From NCBI GenBank assembly GCA_913051775.1, contig CAJXCL010000004.1:1-64000 (forward strand): a stretch of 64,000 nt of DNA, written 5' to 3'. Position numbers and translations under genes: made by a program. The notes below the pieces were generated by a model, which was given only the letters and a program-made list of their open reading frames with translations, was not told the origin of the DNA and did not search any database. Positions 19,960-58,952 of this stretch are shown here, in pieces. Origin of the DNA: an uncultured Nitrospirota bacterium (GTDB taxonomy: Bacteria; Nitrospinota; Nitrospinia; CAJXCL01). Numbering within the stretch: position 1 is the first letter of the stretch; every line of letters starts with the position of its first letter.

Positions 19960-21432
19960 TTAAAAAAGGCTGGAGCTTTGGGCAATTTCTAAAATCCAGG
20001 ATGGAAAAATTCCCAATTGAATTGTGCCAATAACAGCTATGACGAGGGCGGCAAGTGTGAATGGAGAGATAGATAATGGTGGAAATTCTCTCACGGGGTC
20101 TTTTATGTAGATGAGAACGGTAATCCTGAGATAGTAAAATACTGCTACAACGGAATTAAGCAGGCCGATTACGGCAAGGCCTACATATCCCGCTTTTATT
20201 GCCGCGCTAAAAATATAAAACTTTCCGAAAAATCCCGCCAAGGGTGGAATGCCGGCTAATGAAAACATGAAAACAGCCATGGTAAATCCAAGCAAAGGAT
20301 GACGTGATGCTAACCCGGAATAGTCTTCAAGGTTTAGGTTTTCTTCTCCTTTTTTTCCTAATACAATAACTACTGTAAACGCTCCGATATTCATAAATGC
20401 GTAGGCTAACATATAATAAAGAACTGCAGTTGAGCCAATTTCATTGGCCGCAACAAGCGCGACCAGCACATAACCAGCATGCGAGATGGAAGAATAAGCA
20501 AGCATTCTTTTAATATTAGTCTGCGCAAGAGCGGTAAGGTTTCCAACTGTCATGGTCAGCGCGGCTATAACCCAGATGAGTGACACCCAGTGATCTGTTA
20601 TTCCGCCCAATCCTACAAGAAATACCCGGAAGAAAGCGGCGAATCCGGCGGCTTTCGGGCCAACGGACATAAACGCTGTTATGGCAGTGGGTGCTCCTTC
20701 ATAGACGTCCGGTGTCCACATATGGAACGGGACGGAAGCAACCTTGAACCCTAACCCGATAACCATTAACCCAGTTCCCAAATAAAGCAGGGTTGCTGAA
20801 TTTAAAGTGTCACCTTTTATGGCCGCTGCAATTTCTTTCAGGTTGGTTGATCCAGTGGCGCCATAGATTAAAGCCATGCCGTAAAGTAAAAAGCCTGTGG
20901 CAAAAGCCCCTAATAGAAAATATTTTAAGGCGGATTCTGTGGATTCAACTTTTGCGCGGTTAAACCCGGCTAAGATATAAAGAGAGATGGACATTAACTC
21001 AAGCCCGAGAAAGACTGTTATCAAGCTTGCAGCTAAAGCCATCAACATCATCCCAGCTGTAGCAAAAAGAAGCAGGGCATAATATTCACTGTGGTTAAGA
21101 TCTTCCTGCTCCATGTAGTTGATGGAGATCATGATAGTGAGCGCGGTTCCGATACAGAAAATCACATTAAAAAAAGCGGCAAAGTTATCTGCAGCAATAG
21201 TATTGTTGAAGGCGTAAACAGCGGGGCCAAAGTCATTCATAGACGAGATACCCGCGAGTATAACTCCGCCAAGGGCTACATATGGTAAAAGTTTTTTATC
21301 TATTTTAAATGGTAAAAGTTTTTGATCATTTATAAACAGGTCGAGTACCAGGATTAGCAGTCCTGTGACGCATAAAGTTAATATATGACAAATAGCTGAC
21401 AAGTTTATCTCTGGCGTTTGAATCATTTCCAT
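19960..21432 (-). CDS. nuoN: NADH-quinone oxidoreductase subunit N
   Basis: Last gene of nuo operon; LKYFLLGAFATGFLLYG, VPFHMWTPDVYEGAPTAITAFMSVGPKAAGFAA, RMLAYSSISHAGYVL. Confidence 0.95.
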   Translation of the reverse strand: MEMIQTPEINLSAICHILTLCVTGLLILVLDLFINDQKLLPFKIDKKLLPYVALGGVILAGISSMNDFGPAVYAFNNTIAADNFAAFFNVIFCIGTALTIMISINYMEQEDLNHSEYYALLLFATAGMMLMALAASLITVFLGLELMSISLYILAGFNRAKVESTESALKYFLLGAFATGFLLYGMALIYGATGSTNLKEIAAAIKGDTLNSATLLYLGTGLMVIGLGFKVASVPFHMWTPDVYEGAPTAITAFMSVGPKAAGFAAFFRVFLVGLGGITDHWVSLIWVIAALTMTVGNLTALAQTNIKRMLAYSSISHAGYVLVALVAANEIGSTAVLYYMLAYAFMNIGAFTVVIVLGKKGEENLNLEDYSGLASRHPLLGFTMAVFMFSLAGIPPLAGFFGKFYIFSAAIKAGYVGLAVIGLLNSVVAVFYYLRITVLIYIKDPVREFPPLSISPFTLAALVIAVIGTIQLGIFPSWILEIAQSSSLF

Positions 21433-21564
21433 AATTTATTCCTAAAGAATTAGACAGGATTGCAGGATTAAAATGATTATTTTAAAAAGTCTTGCATCCT
21501 CGTCTTTTTATTACATCTATAAAATCCAGTCTATCCAGCTCACCCCTTCAAAAAAAGTGGTTAA

Positions 21565-23112
21565 TTATTTTTTCTCCTCTTTTTCTGTAAGAAGTTCATA
21601 GAATGATTTTTGTGGTTTTTTCTCATTAATCTTTCCTCTTTTTCTTCCTTCTTCAACCTGTGAAACAAGATGGTCTACAGAAGTGTTTATTTTACTCAAG
21701 AAAGGTTTAGGGTAGATGCCAACCCATACTATAAAAAGGAGCACCGGAACCATGATGGTTATTTCCCTTCTGTCCAAGTCTAATAACTTTTTGTTTTCCG
21801 GATTGGTTAGGTCATTGCATATCATTCTCTGATATGTCCAGAGAAGATATGAAGCACCTAACATAACGCCTATTACAGCCATTCCCGCATAGACTTTGCT
21901 GTATTGAAATGCGCCGACTAAAATCAAAAACTCCCCGACAAACCCGTTTAGTCCTGGCAACGCCATGGAAGATAGGGTGACGAGCAAAAAGAAGGTGGAG
22001 TAGAGCGGGATTTGCTTTGATAAACCGCCGTACTCTGAAATTTCACGGGTATGACGGCGATCATAAATCATTCCTACCATCAGGAAGAGGGCTCCGGTGG
22101 AGAGTCCGTGGTTAATCATCTGAATAACTCCACCCTTTATTCCGCTCACGTTAAAAGCAAAAATTCCCAAAACAATAAATCCAAGATGACTGACTGAAGA
22201 GTATGCCACCAGTTTTTTAATATCGCTTTGCACCAGCGCCATTAAAGCGCCGTAAATAATTCCAATAACGGAGAGTGAGCAGATTATAAAGGCCGCCTGA
22301 TGAGAGGCGTAAGGAAAAAGAGGCAGACAGAATCGGATAAACCCGTAAGTTCCCATTTTTAGCAAAACTCCGGCTAATATAACCGATCCGGCTGTAGGGG
22401 CCTCCACGTGGGCGTCGGGCAGCCAGGTGTGAAATGGAAACATAGGAACTTTAATGGCAAAGGCTATTCCAAATGCCAGGAAAAGCCATAATTGGGCGCT
22501 AACTGGAATATCAAGCTGGTGCAACTTTATGAGATCGAAGGTTACTTCCTTGTTAACTTTAAAATTCAAATATACCAGGATTAATATTGCTGCCAACATA
22601 AGAACAGAGCCGGCCATGGTATAGAGGAAAAACTTTATGGCGGCGTAAATTCGTCTCGGACCTCCCCATATGCCGATTATTAAATACATGGGGATCAGCA
22701 TGATTTCCCAGAAGACATAAAAAAGAAACAGATCTAATGAGATAAAAACTCCTACCATTCCTACTTCAAGAAACAGCATGGAAATCATATATTCTTTAAG
22801 TCGTTTTGTAATATTCCAGGAGGCAAGAATACAGATGACTGTTAAAAATGTAGTGAGTAATACTAAAAAGAGAGAAATGCCGTCTATCCCGACGTAATAG
22901 TTAATCCCAAAACCTTCAATCCAGGCCGCTTTTTCTGAAAACTGCATTTCTGCTGTTCCGGGATTAAACCCAAAATAAATGCGGAGAGAGAAGATAAAAT
23001 TAAGAAAAGCCGTGGCCAGGGCTGTCTTTTTTACCGCAGCCGCATTCTCTGCATTGCAAAAAAGAATGGCAATGATTCCCACAAGGGGTAAAAATGTAAT
23101 TACAGTTAGCAT
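21565..23112 (-). CDS. nuoM: NADH-quinone oxidoreductase subunit M
   Basis: [55 protein letters not shown]. Confidence 0.95.
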
Positions 23113-23188
23113 AAATATTGTCGAAAAATTTTCATACTCACCCGCCTATGTGACAGCATAGGTATTTTATTTTAGGCACTTATTGCTG

Positions 23189-24958
23189 TCAGCCTATAAA
23201 AAAATACAGAATAACAACAAAACCAACAACCATCATCAAGGCATAATTTCGAACATGTCCTGTCTGTAAGTGTCTTATGTATTGTCCGCAATCCTTGGCA
23301 AATATTGCGACCTGGTTTACCAGACCATCTATAATTTCAACATCAAAAATTTTCCAAATACCCTGCGCGACTTTCAATCCTGGTTTTGTAACTAAATTCA
23401 TATATAACTGTCCAAAACATGTATCTATAGCTTCTACAGGATTACGTGCCAGGCGTAGGAAAAGCTTGCTTCCTTTTCTGTACAACCAGTCTGTATCAAG
23501 GTTTATAGCCTTCAACTCTGGTGGGTAGATGCCGTTTACCATAAGATATGTAAAAGCTAATGCAGAAAAGAAAAGTATCTGCAGCATTTCCATTACATGC
23601 GCTCCAGTGTAAGGAACAAAGTCAACAGGATACGGGAGAATGCTATATAAAAGACCGGGAAAAATTCCAATAAATATACAGAGAAATGCTGCTATTCCCA
23701 TTGCAATCATCATATTAAGAGGAGGTTCCTTTGTTCTAATGCCTGAATCGTGAGCAAAAAAAGCAAAATAGGGGATTTTAATGCCTGAATGATGAAATAC
23801 ACCAGCGGAAGCGAACATCAGAACCAGCCATACCAGAGTATAATGCCCATCTCCCGTTGCAGTTATTACCATCGATTTACTTATAAAACCACTAAATAGA
23901 GGAAACCCGGAAATAGATGCAGCACCGATCATACAAAAAACAGCCGTTATCGGCATGGTTTTATATAATCCTCCCAGATCCGTTCCATTGATTTTTCCGG
24001 TCATATGCAAAACAGACCCCATGGACATAAAAAGTAGAGCTTTATAGATTATATGGCTGAAGGCATGAGCGGCTGTACCATTGATAGACATTTCAGTACC
24101 AATTCCTATACCAACAACCATGAAGCCAACCTGGTTAATCAAGCTGTATGATAAGACCCTCCTTAAGTCATTTTCAATAACGGCATAAAAAATGGGGAAT
24201 GCTGTCATTATGGTCCCAATAACGATCAAAATGGGTGTTCCCGGAAAAGCTCTTGCCAAAACGTAGACCGCTGTTTTAGTGGTAAAGGCGCTTAACACCA
24301 CTGTACCTGTTATAGTAGCTTCAGGATATGCATCAGGTAACCATGCATGGAGAATTGGCCAAGCGCAATTTACACCAAATCCAAGAAAAATAAGATAAGT
24401 ACCGAGGTTACTTAAGCCTAAATACTTAAACTCTATGGAGCCTGTAGTATTAGCATGGATTACTATACCTGCAAGAAGGAACAAACCACCCACAATATGA
24501 ACTACAGAATATCTCAAAGCTGCTTCATAGGCTGCTTTGGTTCTGCGAGCTAAAACAAGACATACTGACCCTATAGTCATCATTTCCCAGAAGAAGAAAA
24601 GAGAAATAAGGTCACCAGAAAAAACAACACCAAGTGCGCTGCCCGCATATACAAAGGTTGCCCAATAATCGAGATCTTTCTTTACGTGTAGAGCAAAAAT
24701 TATTGATATAAATGAGATTATATGAAATATATATCCCCAGACCATGCTGAGTTTGTCTATTTTGCCGAAAACCAATTGAAAGCCCAGGAAATTTACTGTC
24801 CAATGTATTCCTTCAGGCAAAAACAGAAGGTTTATAAAACCCACAACGGGTAACAGTACTAGAAAAGCAGACTTTGCTTTTCCTTTTATAAAGGGGATAA
24901 AAAATGCTCCAAAAATAAATATAAGTGCTGGTGGCAGATCAATCATAATAATCCTCAT
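23189..24958 (-). CDS. MrpD-like complex I antiporter subunit with NuoL-like C-terminus
   Basis: HAWLPDAYPEATITGTVVLSAFTTKTAVYVL (MrpD-like quinone/proton antiporter domain); C-terminus VDGxVNQ..IRHLQTGHVRNYALMMVVGFVVILYF resembles NuoL. Confidence 0.85.
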   Translation of the reverse strand: MRIIMIDLPPALIFIFGAFFIPFIKGKAKSAFLVLLPVVGFINLLFLPEGIHWTVNFLGFQLVFGKIDKLSMVWGYIFHIISFISIIFALHVKKDLDYWATFVYAGSALGVVFSGDLISLFFFWEMMTIGSVCLVLARRTKAAYEAALRYSVVHIVGGLFLLAGIVIHANTTGSIEFKYLGLSNLGTYLIFLGFGVNCAWPILHAWLPDAYPEATITGTVVLSAFTTKTAVYVLARAFPGTPILIVIGTIMTAFPIFYAVIENDLRRVLSYSLINQVGFMVVGIGIGTEMSINGTAAHAFSHIIYKALLFMSMGSVLHMTGKINGTDLGGLYKTMPITAVFCMIGAASISGFPLFSGFISKSMVITATGDGHYTLVWLVLMFASAGVFHHSGIKIPYFAFFAHDSGIRTKEPPLNMMIAMGIAAFLCIFIGIFPGLLYSILPYPVDFVPYTGAHVMEMLQILFFSALAFTYLMVNGIYPPELKAINLDTDWLYRKGSKLFLRLARNPVEAIDTCFGQLYMNLVTKPGLKVAQGIWKIFDVEIIDGLVNQVAIFAKDCGQYIRHLQTGHVRNYALMMVVGFVVILYFFIG

Positions 24959-25184
24959 CTCTTTTTGTAAGAGTACGTAGCCAGTGTTTTGCCGCGAGGA
25001 CTAGGCCTACGCAGCATACAAACCCATAGATAGCAAAAAAACCGAACCATTCATCCCATCCAAAATGGCCATGTTTATGAACAAAAACATCTCCTAAAAA
25101 AAGAAGAGCGCATAAAACATATAAAATTATCCGGACTTTTTTTGCATTTTCAGGGTTATCAAATATTGTCAATTCTTTTTTCAT
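24939..25184 (-). CDS. small membrane protein in nuo operon
   Basis: 81 aa, two TM segments; between two antiporter subunits with overlapping ends. Confidence 0.75.
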   Translation of the reverse strand: MKKELTIFDNPENAKKVRIILYVLCALLFLGDVFVHKHGHFGWDEWFGFFAIYGFVCCVGLVLAAKHWLRTLTKRDEDYYD

Positions 25185-25185
25185 T

Positions 25186-26676
25186 TTAGTTTCCTCCTCC
25201 TGGAGCAGACAAAATTAGATTAGCCAGCTCAATCAAAGTTGAAGAATTAAAGAATAGAAGTAAAGTCCCTATTGCAGTAAGCGTAAGAGGAACTACCATA
25301 GCTATAGGAGCTTCATGCTTTTCCGGACTTTCACCTTCTGGCAGTTCTTTAAAAAATGCCGCATAAATGATTGGAAGAAAATAACAAGCGTTAAGAATAG
25401 AGCTGACAATCAATACAATGAGCAACGAGATGTGTTTAGATTCTATGGAACCTAAAGCAAGGTACCATTTTGAGACAAAGCCGGCAAATAGAGGCATACC
25501 AATCATGTTCATTGCGCCGATAGAGAAAGCAGCCATAGTCCAGGGCATTTTTCTGGCGATTCCGTTCAACTCGCTGATTTTTGTTTTATGAGCTGCTACA
25601 TAAATAGCTCCGGCACAAAAGAATAGTGTGATTTTTGAAAATGCATGATTGGTTATGTGAATCATCCCTCCGGTCATGCCACTGACTGACAGCATAGCCA
25701 TTCCTAAAACTATATAAGAGAGCTGGCTTATTGTGGAATACGCTAGTCTTGCTTTCAGATTATCTTTAGTGAGGGCAATAACAGAAGATATTATTATTGT
25801 GAATGAAGCAATATAAGCGGTTGTTATTCCGACATTAAGGGCCTGGAGGGTCTCCGGTCCAAAGATGAAGTAGATCATTCGTACAATTGAGAAGACTCCG
25901 ACTTTTACAACGGCAACGGCGTGTAAAAGTGCGCTTACAGGTGTTGGAGCGACCATTGCGGAAGGAAGCCAATTGTGAAAAGGCATGACAGCAGCCTTGG
26001 CAAAGCCAAAAATAAAGAGGAAAAAAACTATCGTAAGTACGGTTTTCTCCTGACTTACGATCTCTCCCGGGAATATTCCACCTGCTTTGAAATTGAGAGT
26101 ACCAGCAAAAACGAAAGTTAAAATAACAGCTGGCAATAAAAACACCTTGGAAGTTCCGATTAAATACCAGAGATACTTGCCGCCTCCTTCGTAAGCTTCA
26201 GGCGTTTCCTTGTGCGCGACCAGGGGATAGGTAACCAATGTAATAATTTCATAGAACAAAAATAATGTGAATAAATTAGCCGCAAAAGCGGCTCCTATGG
26301 TAGCTGAAAGTGTGATCGCGAAACAGCAGTAAAACCTTGTTTGCGCGTGCTCCTTGAGAGTGCGCATATAGCCTATAGAATAAAAAGATGTAAGGACCCA
26401 AAGAAAAGAAGCCGTCAACGCAAACATCAGTCCGAGGGCGTCAACTCTGAATTCGATTGATAAGCCGGGCAAGATCGTGACGAGTAAAAGCTCAATTTTT
26501 TTCCCGGCAAAAATAGCGGGAGCCATGGAAAGAATGATTAAAAATTTTATTGTGGCTGCCCCAATAGAACAAGATTCCCTTCTATTAGGGTTATCTTTAG
26601 TTATGACGATTAGAATGGCCGCAACCAGAGACACAGTAACCGCCAGCAAAGGTTTTATAGAAGTAATAGTTTCCAT
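25186..26676 (-). CDS. MrpD/NuoL-like proton antiporter subunit
   Basis: MPFHNWLPSAMVAPTPVSALLHAVAVVKVGVFSIVR; position immediately after nuoK. Confidence 0.88.
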   Translation of the reverse strand: METITSIKPLLAVTVSLVAAILIVITKDNPNRRESCSIGAATIKFLIILSMAPAIFAGKKIELLLVTILPGLSIEFRVDALGLMFALTASFLWVLTSFYSIGYMRTLKEHAQTRFYCCFAITLSATIGAAFAANLFTLFLFYEIITLVTYPLVAHKETPEAYEGGGKYLWYLIGTSKVFLLPAVILTFVFAGTLNFKAGGIFPGEIVSQEKTVLTIVFFLFIFGFAKAAVMPFHNWLPSAMVAPTPVSALLHAVAVVKVGVFSIVRMIYFIFGPETLQALNVGITTAYIASFTIIISSVIALTKDNLKARLAYSTISQLSYIVLGMAMLSVSGMTGGMIHITNHAFSKITLFFCAGAIYVAAHKTKISELNGIARKMPWTMAAFSIGAMNMIGMPLFAGFVSKWYLALGSIESKHISLLIVLIVSSILNACYFLPIIYAAFFKELPEGESPEKHEAPIAMVVPLTLTAIGTLLLFFNSSTLIELANLILSAPGGGN

Positions 26677-29395: not shown

Positions 29396-30955
29396 CTAAT
29401 TATTAATTTTTATTCCAGTTTCTCCCAGTTTTTCGTAACATATGTTTTTAAAACTCTTAACATTTTTTGAGATTTCATCCATGACCTTGTCCGGTTCTAT
29501 AGTCTCAAAAGGTCTCCCCATTGCTTTAGCTACTCCGCTCAAAATTTCCAGATCCGGCTTAGCCTTGGCAGGGCAGGGGACAGCCCTGTTAGTTTTCTGT
29601 ACGAAGCCGTTTATATTTGTAAATGTGCCTTCTTTTTCAGCAAAAGTTGCGGAGGGAAGCACCACATTAGCTATGGAGCTCAAGTCGGAGTTATGGGTGT
29701 CCTGCACTACCAGAAAATCGAGTTTGGACAGGGTTTGCAGGACATCCTGTTTGGTATTAGAATTGTCTATAATATCATTGCCGATAATATATAGCGCTTT
29801 TAAATTCCCTTTGATGATTTTTTTAACTGATGATGTGTCGTTTGTTTTCACACCGAATTCTCTCGCTCCTTGCGGGTTCGCAGCTTTTTCTTTTTTGATA
29901 AGAAGATCATCTGCTTCCCATGAAGGAACAATACACTCTATATCATTCTTAATATTAAAAACGTTTTTTATTAATTTGTTGAAAAGATAGCATTCCTCAT
30001 TGGTAGCATGGGGTGAACCAATAGCACCAATTTCGTTATTTTTTATCTTTTGTATTCCCTTTGCTATTGTGTCAAACGCTTCATTCCATGAGACTTCTTC
30101 AAGTTTGTTTCCTTTTTTAACCAGCGGTACGGTTAACCGGTTGCTTGTTTCTATCTGTTTATGAGTAATCCGTCCATTATCACACATCCAGACTTTGTTG
30201 ACATCCATATTCTTTCTTGGAAGAAGGCGATAAACTTTACCGCGGCGGTGACAGATTCGGATGCTGCAATTATTTGAACATCCCGGGCAGACTGCTTTTG
30301 TTTCTTCCAAAAACCATACCCTGACCTGAAACCGAAAGTCAGCATTTGTCAATGCTCCAACGGGACATATATCAACAGTATTAAGAGAGTACTTATTGTC
30401 CAGAGATATTCCGGGATAAGTATTTATAATTGATTTATCACCCCGGGAAAACACGGCTAACTCACCGGTTTTGCTCACTTCTCTACAAAATCTTACGCAG
30501 CGACGGCAGAGGATGCAACGCTCTTCATCAAAAACAACACGGGGTCCTATTTTAAACCTTTTTCGTCCAGGCCTTTTTTCTTCTCGAAACCGGCTATGTG
30601 TAATTCCATGCTCAAACGTGTATTGCTGGAGCTTGCATTCACCTGCCTGGTCGCAAATGGGGCAATCGAGAGGGTGGTTTATCAACTGAAATTCCATTAC
30701 TCCTTTTCTGGCTTTTAAAACCTTTTCCGTATTAGTGCGCACTACCATTCCTTCAGTAACCGGAGTATTGCACGCAATGGTGAGTTTAGGTATTTTTTCC
30801 ACTTCTACTAGGCACATTCTGCAACAGCCGTCAATAGAAAGATGAGGATGATAGCAGAAGTGCGGGATTCTCACTCCATTAGCAACTGCAGCCTGTAATA
30901 TGGTTTTACCAGCTTCAGTTTTAACTTCTTTTCCGTTTATTGTAAAAGTCGGCAT
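29396..30955 (-). CDS. nuoG: NADH-quinone oxidoreductase subunit G, compact form with N7 motif
   Basis: 2Fe-2S domain RIPHFCYHPHLSIDGCCRMC, HxxxCxxC, CILCRRCVRFC, CPGCSNNC-x27-C; 519 aa. Confidence 0.92.
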   Translation of the reverse strand: MPTFTINGKEVKTEAGKTILQAAVANGVRIPHFCYHPHLSIDGCCRMCLVEVEKIPKLTIACNTPVTEGMVVRTNTEKVLKARKGVMEFQLINHPLDCPICDQAGECKLQQYTFEHGITHSRFREEKRPGRKRFKIGPRVVFDEERCILCRRCVRFCREVSKTGELAVFSRGDKSIINTYPGISLDNKYSLNTVDICPVGALTNADFRFQVRVWFLEETKAVCPGCSNNCSIRICHRRGKVYRLLPRKNMDVNKVWMCDNGRITHKQIETSNRLTVPLVKKGNKLEEVSWNEAFDTIAKGIQKIKNNEIGAIGSPHATNEECYLFNKLIKNVFNIKNDIECIVPSWEADDLLIKKEKAANPQGAREFGVKTNDTSSVKKIIKGNLKALYIIGNDIIDNSNTKQDVLQTLSKLDFLVVQDTHNSDLSSIANVVLPSATFAEKEGTFTNINGFVQKTNRAVPCPAKAKPDLEILSGVAKAMGRPFETIEPDKVMDEISKNVKSFKNICYEKLGETGIKINN

Positions 30956-32232
30956 TATATTTCAAAACTTTCAGGGCAAGTACATTTACCCGATTTAATA
31001 TGATCTTCGAATTCGCCTCTGAAATGTTTAATTAATCCCTGTATTGGCCATGCTGCCGCGTCTGAAAGAGCGCAAATTGTATTGGCTTCCATGTTTCCCG
31101 CGACATCTAGCAAAAGATCGATGTCTTCCTTTTTTCCGCGGCCATTTTCTATCCCCAGTAATATCTGGTGTATCCAGGATGTTCCCTCTCTGCAGTTTGT
31201 GCATTGCCCGCAACTTTCATGACGGTAAAAATGAGACAGGACAATTCCTACTCTGACCATGCATGAAGTGTTATCCATTACAATAACAGCCCCTGTTCCA
31301 AGAGAACTGCCCGCCTGCATTAAGGAGTCGTGGTCCATTTTTACGTCTACCATGCCGGCGGGTAAAACTTTTGTTGAAGAACCTCCCGGTATAACGGCCT
31401 TTAACTTATTATCGTTACGAATTCCACCGGCTATTTTAAATATTAAATCTTTAAGGTTGTAACCCATTGGGAGCTCATAAGTACCCGGTTTTTTTATATG
31501 GCCGCTAATACCGAAAATTGTATTGCCAGCGCTTTTCTCGGTTCCTATTTTTTTAAACCAGTCTGCGCCGTTATTTATGATATGAGGGACATGACAAAAG
31601 GTCTCAACGTTATTGATAGTTGTGGGGTTTCCCCAAAGTCCATAACCGGCAGGGAAAGGAGGTTTTTTTCTTGGCTGTCCTTTTTTCCCTTCTACCGATT
31701 CCATCAAGCCGGTTTCCTCGCCGCAGATATAAGCTCCAGCTCCACGATGGACATAGATGTCGCAATTAAAACCAGAGTCAAAAATATTTTTCCCCAGATA
31801 ATTTTCTTTGTAGGCCTCGTCAACTGCTTTTTGTAATATTTCAGCCTGCATGGTGTATTCGCCGCGAATATATATATAACAAGCCTTAATTCCCATAGCA
31901 TAAGATCCAATAATAAGGCCTTCTATCAACTGATGCGGCTCGTTCTCAATAATTTGTCTGTCTTTAAAAGTTCCCGGTTCAGATTCGTCGCAATTACAGC
32001 CTATATATTTCGGTTTCTCATTTCCTTTAGGCATAAATGTCCATTTTAAGCCTGTTGGAAAGCCAGCTCCTCCTCTACCCCGGAGTCCCGATTTTTTGAT
32101 TTCTTCGGTGACTTCTTCAGGTTTCATTTTTTTGAGAGCTTTTTTAGATGCCTTGTATCCACCATTTTTTAAATAGACTTTTAAGGTTTTAGAGCCACGC
32201 GTCTTAAAGTTTTTTGTTAAATAAAGTTCCAT
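30955..32232 (-). CDS. nuoF: NADH-quinone oxidoreductase subunit F
   Basis: GLRGRGGAGFPTGLKW, YICGEETGLMESVEG, ESCGQCTNCREG. Confidence 0.96.
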   Translation of the reverse strand: MELYLTKNFKTRGSKTLKVYLKNGGYKASKKALKKMKPEEVTEEIKKSGLRGRGGAGFPTGLKWTFMPKGNEKPKYIGCNCDESEPGTFKDRQIIENEPHQLIEGLIIGSYAMGIKACYIYIRGEYTMQAEILQKAVDEAYKENYLGKNIFDSGFNCDIYVHRGAGAYICGEETGLMESVEGKKGQPRKKPPFPAGYGLWGNPTTINNVETFCHVPHIINNGADWFKKIGTEKSAGNTIFGISGHIKKPGTYELPMGYNLKDLIFKIAGGIRNDNKLKAVIPGGSSTKVLPAGMVDVKMDHDSLMQAGSSLGTGAVIVMDNTSCMVRVGIVLSHFYRHESCGQCTNCREGTSWIHQILLGIENGRGKKEDIDLLLDVAGNMEANTICALSDAAAWPIQGLIKHFRGEFEDHIKSGKCTCPESFEI

Positions 32233-32318
32233 AACTTAGTCGTTGGTTATTAGTAGTTAGTTTTTAGCTGTCACTTATAATCATCAATATCCATTAACTA
32301 AAACCTGTTCACTTAAAA

Positions 32319-32783
32319 TTACTTCAAGCTTTCCAAGATAGTATCAATTTTTTGTTTCGTTAAATTTTCATGAAACTCATCATTCACTTGCATCATAGGA
32401 GCTGTTCCACAACTTCCAAGGCACTCTACGGTAGATAATGTAAATTTATTATCCTTAGTTGTTTCTCCTGTTTTAATTCCCAGTTTGTCTTGCAGATGGT
32501 TCAGCATATGTCTGCTATTCAGAAGAGAACATGAAAGGTTAGTGCAAACCTGTAGGTGATACCTTCCCACAGGATTCATGTTAAACATGGTATAAAAAGA
32601 GACCACTTCCATTACTTCAATCGGTTTGATTTCTATAATTGATGCGATTTCTTCCATTGTTTCTTTGGAAATCCAACCCTGTTCTTTTTGGGCGATATGA
32701 AGAGCCGGGAGAAGAGCAGCCTTCTTCTCAGGGAATTTTGATATCTCTTTAGAAATTTCTTTTTTAGCGTTCTCTGAAAGCAT
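32319..32783 (-). CDS. nuoE: NADH-quinone oxidoreductase subunit E
   Basis: VCTNLSCSLLNS and VECLGSCGTAPMMQVND 2Fe-2S motifs. Confidence 0.95.
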   Translation of the reverse strand: MLSENAKKEISKEISKFPEKKAALLPALHIAQKEQGWISKETMEEIASIIEIKPIEVMEVVSFYTMFNMNPVGRYHLQVCTNLSCSLLNSRHMLNHLQDKLGIKTGETTKDNKFTLSTVECLGSCGTAPMMQVNDEFHENLTKQKIDTILESLK

Positions 32784-36009: not shown

Positions 36010-36471
36010 TTGAATATTTATATGAGTGAGAAATTTAAAATATACTTTTTCCCTATTGAAGAGCCACGCATGGACTGTGTCTGTGAAGCAGTCCAAAAAG
36101 GACTTAAGTTTTTAGATGGTTTATACAATAAATATAAAGATGTGAAGGATGTAAGTTTGTATGTCTGGTCAAAACAAGATATTCCATATTATTTCAAAGA
36201 ATCATTTACTCCGGAAGCGATTAAAATATTAACGGATGGAAAGACGTTAGTTGGAGTCAATCTAAAAATAAAACTCGAATCACATGAAACATTCAGCACA
36301 TCTTCTAACGTTGAAACAATCTTGACCGCGCACCCTAATAAAAAAATGTTTGATGACATATCTGCATCTATTGCTAAGGGTACCGTTAAAACTGTTGTAA
36401 TCATTAATGATGAAAAGAAATCAGAACCATGGTTAACAACCTGGGCTCCGAACCTGGAAAAGATTGAATGA
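36010..36471 (+). CDS. hypothetical protein, no recognised domain
   Basis: 153 aa ORF divergent from nuo operon; likely start is ATG at 36010 or 36022. Confidence 0.6.
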   Translation: MNIYMSEKFKIYFFPIEEPRMDCVCEAVQKGLKFLDGLYNKYKDVKDVSLYVWSKQDIPYYFKESFTPEAIKILTDGKTLVGVNLKIKLESHETFSTSSNVETILTAHPNKKMFDDISASIAKGTVKTVVIINDEKKSEPWLTTWAPNLEKIE

Positions 36472-36692: not shown

Positions 36693-37952
36693 ATGGAATC
36701 TTATCTATTAAAAAACATAAACCTGCCTGATTTAAAGCTACTTAAAACAGCTCTTGATTTTGGGGCTTATAATGGTTTTTTGAAATGCCTGGATAGCTAT
36801 AGCCCAAAAGATGTTGTTGAAGAAATTGAGGCGTCGGGGCTTAGGGGGAGGGGAGGAGGATGGTATTCCACAGGTCAGAAGTGGAATTCTCTTAAAAGAG
36901 TAAAAAATAAACCTGCTTATTTCTGTTGTAACTGCTCAGAAGGGGAACCGGGTTCTTTTAAAGATCGCTTGATAATAGAAAAAAATCCTCACCTATTGCT
37001 CGAGGGAGTTGCTATTGCCTCATATGCACTGGGTGTTAATACTGCCTATATTTGTGTGAGAGGAGAATTTACCGAAGCGACTGAAATTCTAAAAAAATCC
37101 CTTACAGATGCTAAAGCAAAGAAGTTGCTTGGAAAAAATATTCATAATACAGGCTATGATTTAAAGATTATTATTTTTAGAACGGGTGGAAATTACATTT
37201 GCGGTGAAGAGACCGCGCTTCTTAATTCCTTGGAAGGTTGGCCCGCAACACCAAGAGAAAAGCCGCCCTATCCGGCTGAAGCAGGGTTATATGGATGTCC
37301 CACCATAATTAACAATGTGGAGACTGTTTCAAATATCCCTTACATTATTAATAATGGGGTGGATTGGTTTAGCGCTATAGGTTGCAGGGAATGCCCGGGG
37401 AATATGCTTTTTTCAATCAGTGGTCACGTAAAAAAGCCGGGTGTGTATGAAATACCTATAGGAAGCTTTACGTTGCGGGAAATTATCGACCAGTTTGCGG
37501 GCGGCCCTAATAACGGACATTCAATAAAAGCAGTAATCCCGGGAGGTGGGTCTTCCGGCTTTTTATCGCAAAAGGAATTGGATATTACAATGAATCCTGA
37601 TTCGCTAAAAAAGATTGGTTCATCCTTCGGGACAGGATCCATTATTGTTATGGGGGATCAAGCGGATATAGTAAAAATGACCCGTAAACTTGCCAAGTTT
37701 TTTAGGGATGAAAGTTGTAAAAATGAATGTGAGATTTGTAAAAAAGGAAGCATAGAGCTTACTTACCATCTTCTCCAAATTGAAAAAGGAGAGGGGAAAA
37801 GTGAAAATTTAAGTAAAATCCATAAAACTATTGAATCCATGAAAGATGGAGGAATTTGTGCTATGCCACAAACAGCATCATCTGTTATTAAAAGCGCTTT
37901 ACAAAGATTTCCTCATGAATTTAATAATAAAATAGCTAATAAGGTAAGCTAA
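36693..37952 (+). CDS. divergent NuoF-like (51 kDa) paralog
   Basis: GLRGRGGGWYSTGQKW, CNCSEGEPGSFKDR, YICGEETALLNSLEGWPATPREKPPYPAEAGLYGCPTIINNVET, SCKNECEICKKG. Confidence 0.9.
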   Translation: MESYLLKNINLPDLKLLKTALDFGAYNGFLKCLDSYSPKDVVEEIEASGLRGRGGGWYSTGQKWNSLKRVKNKPAYFCCNCSEGEPGSFKDRLIIEKNPHLLLEGVAIASYALGVNTAYICVRGEFTEATEILKKSLTDAKAKKLLGKNIHNTGYDLKIIIFRTGGNYICGEETALLNSLEGWPATPREKPPYPAEAGLYGCPTIINNVETVSNIPYIINNGVDWFSAIGCRECPGNMLFSISGHVKKPGVYEIPIGSFTLREIIDQFAGGPNNGHSIKAVIPGGGSSGFLSQKELDITMNPDSLKKIGSSFGTGSIIVMGDQADIVKMTRKLAKFFRDESCKNECEICKKGSIELTYHLLQIEKGEGKSENLSKIHKTIESMKDGGICAMPQTASSVIKSALQRFPHEFNNKIANKVS

Positions 37953-37955
37953 ATT

Positions 37956-38432
37956 ATGTCTAAAATTAATACGGTTCAAAAAGAAAAAATCCATAAAATT
38001 TTAAAGTATTATCCAGATAATCAATCGGCTTTGCTTCCTATCCTGTTTTACCTTCAGGATGAAAACCGTTATCTTGATGATATGGTGTTATGGGAACTTT
38101 GTGAAATCCTTGATATGAACTTCCAATTTATAAAAGATGTAGCGGAATATTATGTAATGCTTAGAACTCAGCCGGTTGGAGAAAAGCTCATCCGTGTATG
38201 TACCAATGTGGCATGTACCCTATGCGGTAGTGAAGAGCTGGTTGAATATATGGAGGAAAAACTCAGAATTAAAGTGGGAGAGACATCAAAAGACGGCAAA
38301 TATTCTCTTTTTACGGCACATTGTCTAGCCTGCTGTAACAACGGTCCCGCTATACAGGTCAATGATAAATATTACAAGCATATCTCCAGAAAAGATATAG
38401 ATCGACTATTGGAAACCACCGATGCAAAATAG
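37956..38432 (+). CDS. NuoE-like (24 kDa) 2Fe-2S paralog
   Basis: VCTNVACTLCGSEELVEYMEE and AHCLACCNNGPAIQVNDKYY motifs; 3 bp after NuoF-like paralog. Confidence 0.9.
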   Translation: MSKINTVQKEKIHKILKYYPDNQSALLPILFYLQDENRYLDDMVLWELCEILDMNFQFIKDVAEYYVMLRTQPVGEKLIRVCTNVACTLCGSEELVEYMEEKLRIKVGETSKDGKYSLFTAHCLACCNNGPAIQVNDKYYKHISRKDIDRLLETTDAK

Positions 38433-38538: not shown

Positions 38539-40797
<2,259 letters not shown>

Positions 40798-58058: not shown

Positions 58059-58952
58059 ATGACAAAAGTTGACTTTTTAAAGGCAAATTTTTACCACGTA
58101 AAAAGGATTGTGACCGGTTGCTTGATGCTGGCATTGCTTCTCCTCGCGTGCGTAACGAACGCGGAAGAGGTTGCAAAAAGAAAAATTACAAGGATCGCAG
58201 GCGATCTCTATAGATTCCAAAATAAATTTCACTTTTCCGTGTTTCTGGTTACTCCGGAGGGAATCATTGTCACAGATCCGATCAATTCCGATGCGGCGCA
58301 ATGGCTTAAGGCCGAGCTTGTCAAACGTTTCAATCAGCCTGTAAAATACCTGATATACAGTCATGACCATGTGGACCACATTGCCGGCGGTGAGGTTTTT
58401 GCCGATTCAGCAGTTGTTGTTGCGCACGAGAATGCCAGAGTGAACATTATTGGCGAAAAGCGGCCGACTGCTATTCCAGACATCACTTTCTCTGACCAGA
58501 TGACGATCGAACTGGGTGGCAAGACCGTTGAACTCACCTACGTCGGCCGGGGCCATTCAGATAATATGATTGTGATGCGTTTTCCAGCAGAACGCGTCCT
58601 GTTCGCCGTTGACTTTATCCCGGTTAAAGCGGTGGCCTGGAAGAACATGACGGATGCCTACATTCCCGATTGGATGGATGCGATCAAACTTGTAGAGACT
58701 ATGAATTTCGACATTCTGGTGCCCGGACATGGCCCTATCGGCACTAAAGCGGATGCCTCCGCTTTTCGCGGATATATGGAAACGCTGTATGACGAAGTTC
58801 TTCGAGCGGCGCGTGACGGAAAATCTTTGCAGGAGATGAAGGAGAGCATCAGGCTGGATCAGTACAAGAACTGGCACCTCTACGAAAAATTCATATCGCT
58901 CAACATAGAGGGTATGTACAACCAGATTAAGCTGCACCGCCGGGGCAATTGA
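58059..58952 (+). CDS. MBL fold metallo-hydrolase, secreted or lipoprotein
   Basis: YSHDHVDHIAGGEVFADSAVVVAHENA (HxHxDH); N-terminal hydrophobic segment LALLLLAC. Confidence 0.9.
   Translation: MTKVDFLKANFYHVKRIVTGCLMLALLLLACVTNAEEVAKRKITRIAGDLYRFQNKFHFSVFLVTPEGIIVTDPINSDAAQWLKAELVKRFNQPVKYLIYSHDHVDHIAGGEVFADSAVVVAHENARVNIIGEKRPTAIPDITFSDQMTIELGGKTVELTYVGRGHSDNMIVMRFPAERVLFAVDFIPVKAVAWKNMTDAYIPDWMDAIKLVETMNFDILVPGHGPIGTKADASAFRGYMETLYDEVLRAARDGKSLQEMKESIRLDQYKNWHLYEKFISLNIEGMYNQIKLHRRGN

Follow-up and report, generated by a model that had tools for sequence, protein, structure and literature searches.

A second NuoF-NuoE pair beside the nuo operon

Why does a genome with a complete nuo operon keep, right beside it, an additional and strongly diverged copy of the NADH-input module? 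In the stretch of 64,000 nucleotides analysed here (the window), which belongs to an uncultured Nitrospinota bacterium with a 96% complete genome, open reading frames and profiles place the canonical nuoF (30955-32232) and nuoE (32319-32783) on the minus strand, together spanning 30955-32783. A further NuoF-like gene (36693-37952, 419 amino acids) and a NuoE-like gene (37956-38432, 158 amino acids) lie on the plus strand, in the order F-E and 3 bp apart. Coordinates and reading frames of both pairs agree with those given in an initial annotation of this DNA, which had singled out the second one as an orphan. The orphan pair is intact, with 577 codons free of stops and frameshifts, and adjoins the nuo operon while having a strand and a transcription unit of its own. 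It is flanked on the left by an open reading frame (36010-36471) and on the right by a convergent gene for a monomeric NADP-isocitrate dehydrogenase (38539-40770). Its codon usage is native, as in the resident genes. A Shine-Dalgarno-like site is lacking upstream of the NuoF-like gene, as it is for many genes of the window, and neither Rfam models nor a tRNA search gave a match in the window.

The left neighbour, situated on the plus strand between nuoA and the orphan pair, is likewise native in codon usage; it matches neither Pfam nor NCBIfam, and a homologue was found in none of 291 genomes. The nuo operon itself encodes four antiporter-like subunits (19960-26676, minus strand) where three are usual; another set of antiporter-like genes is located on another contig of the same genome (C2, L055). 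Farther along the window, a gene at 58059-58952 (plus strand) encodes a protein of the metallo-beta-lactamase fold that matches the quinoprotein relay zinc metallohydrolase family TIGR04559 best, though below the cut-off.

Family membership

The NuoF-like protein matches PF01512 (4e-40, 137.6 bits) and PF10589 (1.9e-17, 63.4 bits) and the NuoE-like protein PF01257 (3.6e-43, 147.3 bits), all above the gathering scores. This places the pair in the NuoF/NuoE superfamily, and by these profile matches the two proteins are homologous to the NuoF and NuoE of complex I. Profiles, AlphaFold and Foldseek together delimit an FMN/NADH domain, an SLBB domain and an N3-type helical bundle in the former, while profiles and alignment identify the latter as a thioredoxin-like [2Fe-2S] protein. 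Folds, domain order and the absence of extra domains are those of complex I NuoE/NuoF (Aquifex NuoEF, Thermus Nqo1/Nqo2), as are the largely retained FMN/NADH residues and the four N3-type and four N1a-type cysteines. Unlike these subunits, the orphan pair lies outside the nuo operon in F-E order, carries a GWYS loop and a C-x3-C-x2-C motif, and has a diverged N3 bundle. The NuoF-like protein scores 463.7 bits (E = 3.7e-139) against the NuoF equivalog TIGR01959, under the curated cut-off of 558.65 (operon NuoF, 637.3), and is set apart from the equivalog also by its gene, which adjoins those of the other nuo subunits but lies on the opposite strand with a NuoE partner of its own, and by lacking the C-x2-C-x2-C spacing. 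The NuoE-like protein reaches 138.2 bits against a curated NCBIfam cut-off of 142.4 (operon NuoE, 194.7).

Two other groups of NuoEF-type enzymes were compared. The bifurcating Bfu family (HydBC, NfnBC, StnB; PMC9304861) has a NuoF-/NuoE-like core, as the orphan does, and binds NAD(H) in it, but BfuB is defined by additional ferredoxin-type cluster domains, B2-B5 (PMC9304861). The 419-residue orphan lacks these N- and C-terminal cluster domains, contains no extra Fe-S domain and is thus outside the BfuBC core family. It has few HydB-type residues, showing the complex I state at 16 of 35 type-specific positions and the HydB state at three. Like FdsBG and HoxFE, the diaphorases of NAD-dependent formate dehydrogenase and NAD-reducing hydrogenase, the pair would be a diaphorase of NuoEF type that operates apart from complex I, but it lacks the N-terminal ferredoxin-like extension of FdsB, and the catalytic partner, a formate dehydrogenase or hydrogenase subunit encoded alongside or elsewhere in the genome, was not found.

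Cofactor motifs and the NADH site

The orphan NuoF-like protein was aligned with 51 NuoF-type proteins drawn from its own class, from other phyla and from HydB-type enzymes, to which seven were subsequently added, giving 58 homologues. Two of its features occur in none of the aligned rows displayed. The first is in the glycine-rich FMN/NADH loop GLRGRGGGWYSTGQKW (36837-36884), where G-W-Y-S replaces A-G-F-P (A68G, G69W, F70Y and P71S in Nqo1 numbering). The second is a one-residue insertion in the N3 loop ESCKNECEICKKG, whose cysteine motif C-KNE-C-EI-C (37716-37739) has the spacing C-x3-C-x2-C (cysteine codons at 37716, 37728 and 37737), with Cys389 (37857-37859) as the fourth ligand. Both motifs are as first quoted. 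A sequencing error in the cysteine motif, named at the outset as an outcome that would undo the finding, is unlikely because the extra residue requires an in-frame insertion of three nucleotides that leaves the remaining frame undisturbed. The acidic patch CNCSEGEPGSF (36927-36959) also reads as quoted, with D94S and S96G beside the conserved E95 and E97, but is less distinctive than had been proposed: S96G is common among the aligned relatives, D94S has a precedent in a NuoF-like family of the same class (family f6; L057/L059), and CNC is present in the organism's own NuoF as well. Several subfamilies have also lost Phe78.

The orphan retains the equivalents of K75, E95, E97, D103, R135, E184, E185 and K202 (numbering transferred by alignment), so that the NADH ligands checked (K63, E83, E85, E172, E173 and K190 in the orphan's own numbering) are kept; the roles of these residues are taken from PMC6560083 and PMC7171172. 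The putative diaphorase would probably still handle NADH. All eight Fe-S cysteines of the pair are present, including the N1a-type Cys82, 87, 123 and 127 of the NuoE-like protein. The initial annotation had noted that this protein keeps CTNVAC and CLACC; the latter, a Gly129Ala change in Aquifex numbering, is ordinary in the phylum, many NuoE proteins of which have Ala at this position. Ser or Asp here freezes a peptide flip (PMC6560083); the idea that the Ala locks a redox switch was rejected, as so many phylum NuoE carry it. Of the changed Fe-S site or electron donor suggested earlier, the former agrees with the longer N3 loop, while a changed donor is unsupported because the orphan keeps the checked NADH ligands and shares several of the quoted motif changes with ordinary relatives.

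Divergence and constraint

The N3 four-helix bundle is the electron exit from NuoF towards NuoG. Mean identity of the orphan to complex I NuoF is 52% in the FMN domain, 45% in the SLBB domain and 27% in the N3 bundle. The first two values are near the normal range, and the third is below the minimum of 33% seen among 447 divergent complex I pairs, which are not independent of one another. This excess divergence of the bundle tips the balance, with moderate confidence, towards an electron acceptor other than NuoG. AlphaFold gives the orphan the same helices as the control, the organism's own NuoF, with the cysteine loop one residue longer; in the orphan and control alike, the cofactor loops are modelled with low confidence. 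Foldseek, in the matches shown, pairs the orphan with NuoF, HydB-type proteins and beta chains of formate dehydrogenase, at TM scores of about 0.8. Loss of H338, E349 and W353 (numbering of the own NuoF) was considered as a sign of lost NuoG docking and dropped, since E349 and W353 are absent in Aquifex NuoF and E. coli-type NuoF (L008, L009) varies at H338.

The orphan retains 83% of the residues at columns with at least 94% agreement among homologues and 23-38% at variable columns. It deviates at 16 of 90 near-invariant columns, distinct functional subfamilies at 14-15 and complex I NuoF proteins at 2-9. This pattern speaks against free drift, although, with one genome to judge from, selection may be relaxed.

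Candidate partners in the genome

The initial annotation had reported that no NuoG, hydrogenase or formate dehydrogenase partner lies nearby; the absence of a dedicated partner holds for the locus and across the genome. Besides a single NuoG, which the operon pair serves, the genome encodes two NuoE proteins; its 51K-type proteins number three, NuoF, the orphan and RnfC. Genome-wide, neither PF00374 nor PF02906 has a match, and large subunits of NiFe- and FeFe-hydrogenases are absent; a formate dehydrogenase of the NAD type was not found either. The PF00384 proteins present are NuoG, a YdeP-like oxidoreductase and an arsenite-oxidase/iodate-reductase-like (AioA/IdrA-like) protein. On contig C12 (L056:5277-11100, minus strand), two MauG-type di-haem peroxidases, a Rieske protein with a Tat signal and an arsenite-oxidase-type molybdoenzyme stand in a row, matching in gene content the iodate-reduction cluster idrABP1P2 (PMC8692401).

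Function of the orphan pair

The orphan pair is a real, intact and diverged NuoEF paralogue, found in one genome, which varies a well-known module and is not a new kind of system. Our tentative preference, held at somewhat less than an even chance, is that it represents a duplicated NuoEF diaphorase, the electron-exit face of which has been reshaped to fit some partner that is not NuoG. On this view the NADH-input module of complex I was duplicated long ago, and the copy would have left the nuo operon and may now act as a separate FMN/[4Fe-4S]/[2Fe-2S] diaphorase. Hydride would pass from NADH to FMN, or in reverse, and single electrons would exit via the N3-type cluster, the longer cysteine loop and the remodelled helical bundle forming the exit face for the acceptor, possibly a soluble carrier or a protein encoded at another locus. 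The repurposed diaphorase proposed in the initial annotation is, in this form, the best reading, given the kept NADH site, the disproportionately diverged N3 bundle and the longer N3 loop. The native codons, the near-invariant columns kept, and a single NuoG that has its partners in the operon pair, in a genome where hydrogenase and NAD-type formate dehydrogenase were not found, also count in its favour. Counted against it are the presence of the pair in one genome, the missing Shine-Dalgarno-like site before the NuoF-like gene and the fact that NuoG is the sole known type of NuoEF partner encoded there.

The last point makes an alternative tip of complex I the strongest rival, in which the orphan replaces NuoE and NuoF on NuoG under some conditions and alters the affinity for NADH, the formation of superoxide or the direction in which electrons flow. 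The proximity to the nuo operon and the complex I type of the residues are consistent with such an exchange, but the domain that passes electrons to NuoG is the most diverged of all, a second NuoG is absent and the pair is transcribed on its own; we consider an alternative tip fairly unlikely. Also unlikely is a slowly decaying paralogue, that is, a duplicate under relaxed constraint with its activity lost or reduced. It would account for the very long branches (1.0-1.14 for F and 1.46 for E), the altered near-invariant loop residues and the fact that no relative keeps the pair, but not readily for the open frames, the complete set of Fe-S cysteines, the retained NADH-site residues and the retention at near-invariant columns, where the number of deviations resembles that of functional subfamilies. 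A far-reaching version of the preferred reading, a free-standing enzyme derived from NuoEF that has a re-engineered N3 site (C-x3-C-x2-C and the distant Cys), a Trp/Tyr nucleotide loop and a previously undescribed partner, is rather improbable.

Close relatives of the orphan pair were found neither in 77 genomes of the phylum nor in 387 relative genomes. A peptide scan of GTDB r220 gave 12 matches and no close relative; the matches that were aligned proved to be ordinary proteins of the NuoF or HydB type. No close relative was found in viral contigs or in plasmids, all plasmid matches being below 60% identity; these contig scans use exact short peptides and may miss more distant relatives. The C-x3-C spacing was found in no relative in the searched genomes and contig scans, and no account of such a variant was found in the literature on orphan NuoEF paralogues. 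As a single-genome case with no known partner, the pair carries modest weight. NuoEF is a reusable redox building block, and a kept NADH site combined with a rebuilt exit cluster and surroundings would, if true, show how the module is re-plugged to new partners and offer a test of how the spacing of the N3 ligands tunes the cluster.

Very improbable is kinship with the f6 NuoF-like proteins (L057, L058, L059), with electrons passing to or from a Rieske/cytochrome b complex: a reduced tree joins them (support 83/64), both have a diverged N3 bundle, some f6 proteins (about 440 amino acids) share the S-E-G-E-P patch and contig C21 of the orphan's own genome encodes two Rieske/cytochrome b clusters, but the tree support is weak, with long-branch attraction flagged by the tree program and a clade with the own and f4 NuoF not rejected (p-AU 0.38), the f6 proteins have the normal C-x2-C-x2-C motif and AGF loop, the f6 stretches fetched show no NuoE alongside, and the C21 cluster is without the f6-type cytochrome b-ferredoxin fusion and has a flavoprotein of its own. 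The two C21 clusters (L084:2793-15069) include multihaem cytochromes, and at the head of the first stands a GltD-like FAD protein that carries 4Fe-4S motifs at its C-terminus. In the f6 genomes L057 and L058, of the same class, the NuoF-like protein (438-441 amino acids) is encoded beside large cytochrome b proteins with ferredoxin motifs, with which it possibly forms an NAD(H)-linked cytochrome b complex.
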